This document shows positions 6,808 through 46,460 of a stretch of 50,056 nucleotides of DNA, piece after piece. Both the position numbers and the translations under genes were made by a program. The stretch comes from Nitriliruptoraceae bacterium. Its GTDB lineage: Bacteria > Actinomycetota > Nitriliruptoria > Nitriliruptorales > Nitriliruptoraceae. The notes beneath the pieces were generated by a model. It did not search any database and had not been told where the DNA came from. It was given only the letters and a program-made list of their open reading frames with translations. Numbering within the stretch: position 1 is the stretch's first letter; every line of letters begins with the position of its first letter. The stretch lies in NCBI GenBank assembly GCA_003563915.1, contig PWTE01000381.1, positions 1-50,056 on the forward strand, written 5' to 3'.

Positions 6808-8013
6808 GTGAACCTCGCCATCCTGTCCCGCGCGAGGGACAGCTACAGCACCCGCCGGCTGGTCGCTGCAGCGGAGGAACGTGACCACCAGGTGCGTGTG
6901 CTCGACACGCTCCGCTTCGCGATCGACCTCACCGGCGACGAACCCGACCTGCAGTACCGCGGGAAGGCTCTGGCGGACTACGACGCCATCCTGCCCAGGA
7001 TCGGGGCGTCCATCACGTTCTTCGGGATGGCGGTGGTCCGCCAGTTCGAGCAGATGGACGTCTACACACCGACGACCGCCGCGGGGATCGCCAACTCGCG
7101 CGACAAGCTGCGGTCGATGCAGATCCTCTCCCGTCACGACGTCGGGATCCCCGCGACCGCGTTCGTCCGGGACCGCGCCGACGTGATGCCAGCGATCGAG
7201 CGGGTCGGTGGCGCCCCCGTGGTCATCAAGCTCCTGGAGGGGACCCAGGGCATCGGCGTGATCCTGGCTCCGGACAACAAGGTCGCCGGCGCGGTGATCG
7301 AGACGCTGCAGTCCACCCGGCAGAACGTGCTGATCCAACGCTTCGTCTCGGAGAGCAAGGGCCGCGACATCCGAGCGTTCGTGCTCGGTGACCGTGTCGT
7401 CGCGGCCATGCGGCGGGTCGCTCAGGGTGACGAGTTCCGGTCCAACGTCCACCGTGGCGGGTTCGTGGAGTCGGTCGAACTCGACGAGGAGTACCAGCGG
7501 GTCGCGGTGAAGGCCGCGCAGATCATGGGACTCAAGGTCGCCGGGGTCGACATGCTGGAAGGCAAGGATGGCCCGAGCATCATGGAGGTCAACTCCTCCC
7601 CGGGCCTCGAGGGGATCGAATCAGCGACCCAGTTGGACATCGCCGGCGCGGTGGTCGACTACGTCGCGAACCAGGTCGACTTCCCAGAGCTCGACGTCCG
7701 TCAACGGCTCACCGTGAGCACCGGGTACGGCGTCGCCGAACTGCTCGTGCGAGAGGGCCTCGACCTGGTCGGGCGCACCCTCGCCGAGTCCGGTCTGCGT
7801 GAACGTGACATCTCGGTGCTGACCCTCACGCGTGACGCCAAGGTGATCCCGAACCCGCGCGGACACCGCGAGCTGGAAGCGGGCGATCGGCTCCTGTGCT
7901 TCGGACGTCTCGAGGAGATGCGTGACCTGGTTCCGGCGCGGCGTCGTCGGCGTGCGCGCGCACAGCTCGAGCCGCTCCCCGACGACCCGCTGCACGAGGA
8001 GGACGACAGCTGA
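6808..8013 (+). CDS. rimK: RimK-type ATP-grasp ligase fused to a TrkA-C (RCK_C) domain
   Basis: A 401-residue protein; GTG 6808 follows GAGAGGAGAG. Residues 1-295 match RimK, the alpha-L-glutamate ligase that adds glutamates to ribosomal protein S6. Visible are the N-terminal RimK domain, the ATP-grasp lysine in VVIKLLEGTQGIGV, the SESKGRDIRAFV segment and the metal-binding IMEVNSSPGLEGIE. E. coli RimK ends near residue 300. Here about 80 more residues (297-375) follow, with RLTVSTGYGVAELLV, LVGRTLAESGLRERDI and LEAGDRLLCFGRLEEM: the layout of a TrkA-C/RCK_C domain, which elsewhere gates potassium transporters and in some proteins binds cyclic di-AMP. A basic, then acidic tail ends the protein. 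The fusion suggests allosteric control of the ligase; that is inference. Confidence 0.88.
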   Translation: MNLAILSRARDSYSTRRLVAAAEERDHQVRVLDTLRFAIDLTGDEPDLQYRGKALADYDAILPRIGASITFFGMAVVRQFEQMDVYTPTTAAGIANSRDKLRSMQILSRHDVGIPATAFVRDRADVMPAIERVGGAPVVIKLLEGTQGIGVILAPDNKVAGAVIETLQSTRQNVLIQRFVSESKGRDIRAFVLGDRVVAAMRRVAQGDEFRSNVHRGGFVESVELDEEYQRVAVKAAQIMGLKVAGVDMLEGKDGPSIMEVNSSPGLEGIESATQLDIAGAVVDYVANQVDFPELDVRQRLTVSTGYGVAELLVREGLDLVGRTLAESGLRERDISVLTLTRDAKVIPNPRGHRELEAGDRLLCFGRLEEMRDLVPARRRRRARAQLEPLPDDPLHEEDDS

Positions 8014-43851: not shown

Positions 43852-43873
43852 TAGGTGGCCAGGTGACCGGGAC

Positions 43874-43879: not shown

Positions 43880-43886
43880 GCGGGGT

Positions 43887-46460
43887 ATGTCACGATCGAC
43901 CGACTCCCCGCGGGAGGATCTACGGCGAGGCGCCGACCTGTCACCTCTGCCGGTCGATGGGGTGGTGCCGGAACTGCTCGACGCCCTCGACCGCGCTGGT
44001 CATGCGGTGCTGGAAGCCGAGCCGGGTGCTGGCAAGACGACCAGGGTCCCGCTCGCACTCGTGGCGGAAGGCGCTGCGCAGCGGCTGATCGTCCTCGAAC
44101 CACGGCGGGTGGCGGCGCGGGCTGCGGCACGCCGACTCGCTTCACAGCTCGGCGAACCGGTCGGGCGCACCGTCGGGCTCACGACCCGCGACGATCGACA
44201 GGTCTCCCCGGGGATGCGGATCGAGGTGGTGACCGAGGGGGTCGTGCTCCGACGGATCCAGCAGGACCCGAGCCTGACGGGCGTCGACCTGCTGGTCTTC
44301 GACGAGTTCCACGAGCGCTCCCTGGAGGCGGACCTCGCCCTGGCCTTCGCCCTGGAGGTCCGCGGGGCGCTCCGCGACGACCTTCGGCTGCTCGTGATGT
44401 CCGCGACGATCGAAGGACCGCGCGTCGCACGGCTCCTGGGTGATGCCCCGCTGCTCACCACCGTGGGGCGCAGCTTCCCGGTCGACATCGAACACCGTCC
44501 CGGCCCCGTGGACCGTCGGGACCTGCCTGCCGCGATCCGCGCGGCCGTCAGCGACCTGCTGCCCGATGGCGACGTGTTGGTCTTCCTCCCCGGTGCCGGC
44601 GAGATCCGCGCCACGATCCGGGAGCTGACCGGGTCGCCGCTGCCCGGCGATCCGGTGGTCCTGCCGCTGTACGGTGCCCTGAGCGGTCAGTAACAGGACC
44701 GGGCCCTGCGGTCCGCTCCCGATGGGCGCCGTAAGGTCGTCGTCGCGACCGACCTCGCCGAGACGAGCCTCACCATCGAGGGTGTGCGGGGTGTGGTCGA
44801 CGCCGGCTGGTCCCGGGAACCGCGCTTCGATCCGGCCACGGGGATGTCGGGTCTGGTGACCGTCCCGGCGTCACGATCGTCCGCGGAACAGCGGGCCGGA
44901 CGTGCCGGGCGCACCGCCCCGGGACGCTGCATCCGGTTGTGGCCGGAACGTGAGCACCTGGCACGTGACGCACAACCTCGCCCCGCCATCCTGACCGATG
45001 ATCTCAGTGGTGCCGCCTTGGAGGTGGCCGCCTGGGGTGCGGAGGTCGCCGAGCTCCGCCTCCTCGACCGCCCACCGACCGCGGCGTGGCAGCAGGCCAC
45101 CGACACCCTCCGTCAGCTCGGGGCGTTGGACGCCACCGGCCGCATCACCGAGCACGGTCGTCACCTCGCCGGGTTGCCGCTGTCGCCGCGGCTCGGTCAG
45201 CTCGTGCTGACCGGCAGGGCAACGGGAGATCTCCGACTGGCCTGCGAGCTGGCCGCGGTCCTCGGCGACCGCGACCCGCTCCTGACCGACCGCGACCACC
45301 CGAGTGCCGATCTGGCTGCACGGGTCCGCGTCGTGCGCGGTGACCAGCCACCGACCGGGACCGGCGTGCGCCGCGGTGCCCTGCGGCGGCTCCGCGAGCA
45401 CGCCCGGCGCCTGGCACGCCAGGTCAACGACCTCCCCGCCAGGCCCCCGAGCACGGGCACGGCCGCTGCTCACCCCGAGGCCCAGGAGCCGGACCGGCCC
45501 GACCGTGCCGGGCGACTCGTCGCGGCGGCGTGGCCGGATCGGGTCGCCGGTCTGCGCGCCGACGCACGGGGGCGGTTCCTGCTGGCGTCGGGGCGGGGAG
45601 CCACCCTGCCCGACGGTGACCTGCTGGCGGGGGAGCCCTGGCTCGCGGTCGCCCACCTCGATCGCGGTGCCGAACAGGCCCGCATCCACCTCGCGGCGGC
45701 CGTCGACGCCCAGGACGTCCGTGAGGTCCTGGGCGACCGGATCGGCGAGGTCGAGGTGGTGGAGTGGCGCGACGGGGACGTGCGCGCCGAACGACGCGTG
45801 ACGCTGGGCGCACTGGTGCTCGACCGCGGTCCGCTGTCGGACGACACCCCTGCGCGGCGCTACCCGGCGCTGCTCGACGGGCTGCGGAAGGAAGGGCTCG
45901 CCCTGCTGCGGTGGGACCGCGATGCCCAGGACCTGCAGGCCCGCGCCGCCTTCGTCCGCCACCACCGGGGGGATCCGTGGCCGGACCTGCGCGAGACCGC
46001 GCTGCTCGCCGACCTCGAGACGACCGTCGGCCCGTTCCTGCTGCAGGCCCGCCGCCGTGCCGACCTCGCCCAGGTGTCGGCCGCGGAGGTCCTCGCCGCA
46101 CAGCTCACCCCTCAGCAGCGCCGCGAGCTGGACCGGCTGGCGCCGCGCCACCTCGACGTCCCTTCAGGCTCGCGGTTGCGGGTGACCTACGACGGGGACA
46201 CGGCGATCCTGGCCGTCCGACTGCAGGAGCTGTTCGGGGCACGCGCCACGCCGACGGTGCTGGACGGCCGGGTGCCCGTGCTGCTCCACCTGTTGTCGCC
46301 GGCGCAGCGCCCCGTGCAGGTGACCGACGACCTGGCGGGGTTCTGGTCACGCAGCTACCCCGAGGTGCGCAGCGAGCTCCGTGGTCGCTACCCCAAGCAC
46401 GCCTGGCCGGAGGACCCCACCACCGCGACGCCGCTGCGAGGTGCGAAGCGGCGCCGCTGA
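43887..46460 (+). pseudogene. hrpB: hrpB ATP-dependent helicase interrupted by one in-frame TAA
   Basis: The frame encodes a full-length HrpB-type DEAH helicase of 857 positions, broken only by TAA at 44691-44693 (codon 269). Before it: Walker A PGAGKTTRVPL (residues 46-56), LEPRRVAARAAARRLA, DEFHERS, VMSATI and VLVFLPGAGEI. After it, in the same frame: VVVATDLAETSLTIEGV, AEQRAGRAGRTAPG and the HrpB C-terminal domain to the end. The stop falls in the GALSGQ-x-QDRAL stretch, where relatives have a polar residue such as Glu; GAA to TAA is a single change. No frameshift or other damage is seen. The break separates the two RecA-like domains. It could be a recent mutation, an assembly error or readthrough. 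Confidence 0.88.

Follow-up and report, generated by a model that had tools for sequence, protein, structure and literature searches.

A single in-frame TAA codon, read directly from the sequence at positions 44691-44693 of the forward strand, splits a full-length hrpB gene in the window, by which is meant the whole stretch of DNA analysed here (50,056 nucleotides). The window corresponds to one entire 50 kb contig, C195, in a draft genome of 4.15 Mb (4,152,475 bases). The TAA is regarded as a nonsense codon of an ordinary kind, for which a consensus error or a strain allele short of fixation is slightly favored over genuine gene loss. A probability of roughly 0.52 is attached to the reading in which the stop is a consensus error, or an allele present in only some members of the population, and hrpB is intact in most cells. 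Neither an error or unfixed allele nor a recent loss is surprising.

The interrupted hrpB frame

When the frame at 43884-46460 is translated throughout, the TAA is the sole stop besides the terminator and falls at residue 270 of the read-through protein. The features of this region are listed below.

43887-44690, forward strand: 5′ part of hrpB, with ATG at 43887 (GTG at 43863 is also in the open frame); RecA1 and the start of RecA2; TIGR01970 positions 1-249, DEAD at residues 37-179
44691-44693, forward strand: in-frame TAA at residue 270, inside Helicase_C; position free of stops in 107 relatives' loci
44694-46460, forward strand: 3′ part of hrpB, with the rest of RecA2, HA2 and HrpB_C and its own terminator, TGA; TIGR01970 positions 253-824 of 825, HrpB_C at residues 716-845
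44784-46460, forward strand: longest open reading frame downstream of the stop that has a listed start, from GTG 44784 (558 aa); product would be without the ATP-binding domain

Matched separately to the TIGR01970 profile, the 5′ piece (E 9.4e-88) and the 3′ piece (E 2.1e-167) abut end to end, and the read-through protein covers profile positions 1-824 of 825 with 874 bits and one TAA inside, above the curated cut-off of 546.15 bits. Membership of the HrpB family is also indicated by the HrpB-specific C-terminal domain, HrpB_C (PF08482; E 5.9e-50), and a two-part match of this kind around the TAA is far from chance. Coding statistics prefer the hrpB frame on either side of the TAA, with 60-codon coding log-odds of 13.5 before the stop and 16.0 after it and third-position G+C of 0.83 and 0.87, respectively. 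The first-pass annotation of this DNA had claimed that a lone TAA splits an otherwise intact hrpB and that frame and coding quality are the same on both sides; the former claim is upheld by the frame, the two profile halves and the 874-bit score, and the latter by the log-odds and base composition.

The same annotation had placed the stop between the two RecA domains, which is incorrect, as residue 270 lies within RecA2 (Pfam Helicase_C, residues 223-344). We take this position to be between helicase motifs IV and V. Four motifs that are presumably those of a helicase, GAGKT (which we take to be the ATP-binding motif), DEFH, SAT and QRAGRAGR, are all present in the read-through protein. These motifs and the domain order RecA1, RecA2, HA2 and HrpB_C are fully shared with the DExH-box helicase HrpB (TIGR01970; E. 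coli structures 6eud and 6heg), and alignment to the E. coli protein (6eud) is continuous across the site, where the E. coli residues are Asp and then Gln. Unlike HrpB, however, the sequence as written has a TAA at residue 270, and both RecA domains are complete in no single product. Past the stop, no in-frame ATG, GTG or TTG occurs until the GTG at 44784, 30 codons downstream, and translation begun there would yield a product devoid of the ATP-binding domain and truncated in RecA2. Neither piece, as written, would be expected to be a working helicase; given the TAA at residue 270, there is no uninterrupted HrpB polypeptide, and the sequence as written is thus an interrupted hrpB and not a working member of the family.

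hrpB in relatives and the constraint on the frame

A HrpB match was obtained in 43 of the 61 genomes searched, this genome counted, and no stop was seen inside hrpB in the other 42. The hrpB loci of relatives numbered 109, among which at least five pairs are probably duplicate records (contigs of equal length, with the same sequence at the site); these loci show no stop in their aligned pieces, no frame change and no split HrpB. The stop site is covered by 107 of them, and all 107 carry a sense codon there. Such a codon had been proposed earlier as grounds for dismissing the stop, and its presence in the relatives is clear, but it leaves a recent change unrefuted, since a recent change or an error predicts exactly that. 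In 23 genomes of the same family, the aligned codon specifies Glu in 13 (10 GAG, 3 GAA), Asp in six and Ala in four, a variation that marks the site itself as tolerant, and the residue after it is Gln in 23/23. One base change would be enough to make TAA from a Glu codon, the residue in 13 of these 23 family members, and to this extent the suggestion of such a change (for example, GAA to TAA) is supported. As a separate observation, in genus g11 of the same family, HrpB is absent from four small genomes of 1.1-1.7 Mb (G013, G024, G028 and G032), three of which are 96-97% complete, in what is an apparent lineage loss.

Constraint on the protein was assessed in an alignment of 20 HrpB proteins, with the sister-species sequences L006 and L007 for comparison. 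At columns invariant in the others, this HrpB departs at 3/189, as does each sister; at columns at least 90% conserved, the departures are 7/251 against 9/253 in each sister, and for such columns after the stop they are 6/166 against 8/168 and 4/166. Its branch length is 0.255, and those of the sisters are 0.275 and 0.295. Neither the relaxed constraint nor the further lesions of a decayed pseudogene were found, there being no other stop in the frame. To judge from these comparisons, hrpB has been under normal constraint until practically now, or is so still, and the lack of decay in the read-through protein means that the change is either very recent or absent from the organism. Very recent loss and sequencing error, both of which were put forward in the first-pass annotation, remain as the two readings, the remainder of the gene being undamaged.

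A true and very recent nonsense mutation, in which the population would be without HrpB and the gene too young to have decayed, is a serious contender, held at a little under even odds. HrpB was matched in 27 of 34 same-family relatives. Where completeness is 90% or more, the figure is 10 of 13, and the three exceptions all belong to one genus and are 1.7 Mb in size. On this distribution, the family can do without hrpB, and the gene is dispensable there. This genome has no second HrpB to be found with TIGR01970, the next best match scoring 27.5 bits, and the step from a Glu codon is as short as described above. A Xanthomonas citri hrpB deletion mutant is described as viable, with defects in adhesion and biofilm, in PMC4804567. 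The dispensability of hrpB in the family and the viability of this mutant make a recent loss believable, although with no relaxation of constraint such a loss must be extremely recent. The hrpB of this organism has no mention in the excerpted literature searched (including PMC4804567, PMC6146748 and PMC6389857).

Further lone stops in the draft assembly

The draft genome consists of 389 contigs and is 91.8% complete and 2.9% contaminated. Those kin of its hrpB that have names come from metagenome-assembled Nitriliruptoraceae, and this genome is probably of the same sort. Sample names of some of these kin recur in PMC6146748, a study of soda-lake sediment metagenomes, made with Illumina reads and MEGAHIT, which is apparently the source of some of them.

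Stops with coding sequence on both flanks and no start within the first ten codons were sought in 1,406,376 of 4,152,475 bases, made up of the window and a further 120 stretches of its genome. Eighteen places (15 + 3) were returned, of which 15 were judged by eye to be gene ends with a new gene or a non-coding frame beyond them, and three were taken as interrupted genes; the comparison with relatives covered these three alone. The scan detects about 32% of random stops placed in long genes, so that several more interrupted genes may exist. Because a stop must be flanked by intact coding sequence to be detected at all, the scan is unable to reveal whether undecayed genes are in excess.

One of the two further cases is a TatD-family nuclease gene (L147:6650-7450, reverse strand; G000:C360) with one in-frame TAG at 6836-6838, residue 205, on the two sides of which TIGR00010 matches at profile positions 1-198 and 201-252. 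The gene is present in 31/31 genomes searched, and Glu occupies the site in every one of the 28 relatives' loci that were read across it, one more breaking off short of the site; stop flags on five other TatD loci comprised one that was seen again, at the gene's end, and four outside the alignments. The other case is a 130-codon gene (L290:573-962, reverse strand; G000:C375) with one in-frame TAG at 777-779 and no Pfam match. Among nine other loci, its site is Ser in five, including an intact second copy in this genome, and Pro in two that apparently represent one place, while two fragments were not aligned across it. The gene has copies at 95% identity in another genus and at 90% identity elsewhere in this genome (C101), which suggests a mobile element. 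That two other genes of the assembly show the same pattern as hrpB, one of them a gene present in all genomes searched, counts against a true loss.

With detection at about 32%, three interrupted genes correspond to random substitution at about 3 per 10,000 bases (an arithmetic estimate that assumes roughly 400,000 codons scanned), a rate that fits either consensus errors at that frequency or recent pseudogenes in their customary number. On the assumption that the ancestral codons matched those of the kin, each of the three stops would have arisen by a G:C to T:A change, which means little because about half of the stop-making changes in this codon usage are expected in that class (0.317 + 0.196); for hrpB, the mutation class is a guess, given that Glu, Asp and Ala all occur at the site.

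Readings of the stop

In the favored reading, that of a consensus error or unfixed allele, the TAA would have arisen by substitution of one base in an hrpB that is otherwise normal, and would have no function of its own. It would have entered the sequence as a wrong base in the metagenome consensus, or as a partial-population allele that the assembler incorporated, while most cells of the population would carry an intact hrpB; the base itself would then be wrong or unfixed. The draft state of the assembly and the lack of hrpB decay are consistent with this, as are the two additional lone in-frame stops without counterpart in relatives. The TatD stop tips the balance slightly: an error or an unfixed variant explains it more easily than loss does, as it lies at an invariant Glu and the gene is present in every relative searched. 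Against this reading, a 50 kb contig, among the longer ones met, mildly contradicts very low coverage, and three such genes in a third of the genome could be ordinary pseudogenes.

Readthrough of the TAA by a suppressor tRNA, TAA recoding or a recoding signal, with full-length HrpB being made, had been allowed for in the first-pass annotation and is here considered highly improbable. The frame and protein are under the same constraint after the stop as before it, and TAA is a rare terminator, ending 24 of 1000 apparent genes in the window and the 120 stretches (TGA, 798; TAG, 178), both of which speak for such a mechanism. However, no tRNA with an anticodon for TAA occurs among the 50 typed of 51 tRNA places in this assembly, nor in the window, although a completeness of 91.8% leaves a small chance of a missing tRNA, and release factors 1 and 2 (prfA and prfB) are both present and intact. 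TAA also ends other complete-looking genes (such as L147:3473, L152:19171 and L160:8684) that are then followed by other genes, the other two in-frame stops are TAG, the RNA fold around the stop resembles that of its shuffles (z -0.96), and the stop is conserved in none of the 107 relatives' loci. Readthrough was rejected on the combined evidence of tRNA typing, release factors, TAA use, folding and conservation. A variant in which the TAA, rare in this lineage, lets through a low level of HrpB, the stop acting as a throttle on a dispensable helicase, is scarcely to be credited.

It is also very doubtful that the two halves are separate, cooperating proteins, the second produced from a restart. 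The GTG at 44784 does begin a 558-codon frame and has a purine-rich GAGGG immediately 5′ of it, but a restart 30 codons downstream would cost either product a portion of RecA2, the break is within a folded domain, no promoter-like site is found at 44600-45000, and no split HrpB occurs among the 109 relatives' loci; this arrangement was rejected on the position of the stop in RecA2 and the intact loci of relatives. A templated mutation from an inverted repeat (arms 44614-44631 and 44684-44701) was rejected as well, because the TAA sits where the letters of the two arms mismatch and so does not derive from the partner arm.

Error in the consensus, or an unfixed allele, is slightly preferred to true loss, and the case carries a caution: a lone in-frame stop in a healthy gene of a draft metagenome assembly is, without reads, no basis for calling a loss or readthrough, and this same assembly has at least two more such genes, one a nuclease found in every genome searched. 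With nonsense pseudogenes and the single-base consensus errors of draft metagenome assemblies, the hrpB interruption shares its one stop, an intact remainder, the lack of a stop in relatives and the presence of more cases in the assembly, and it has no feature that would distinguish it from them.
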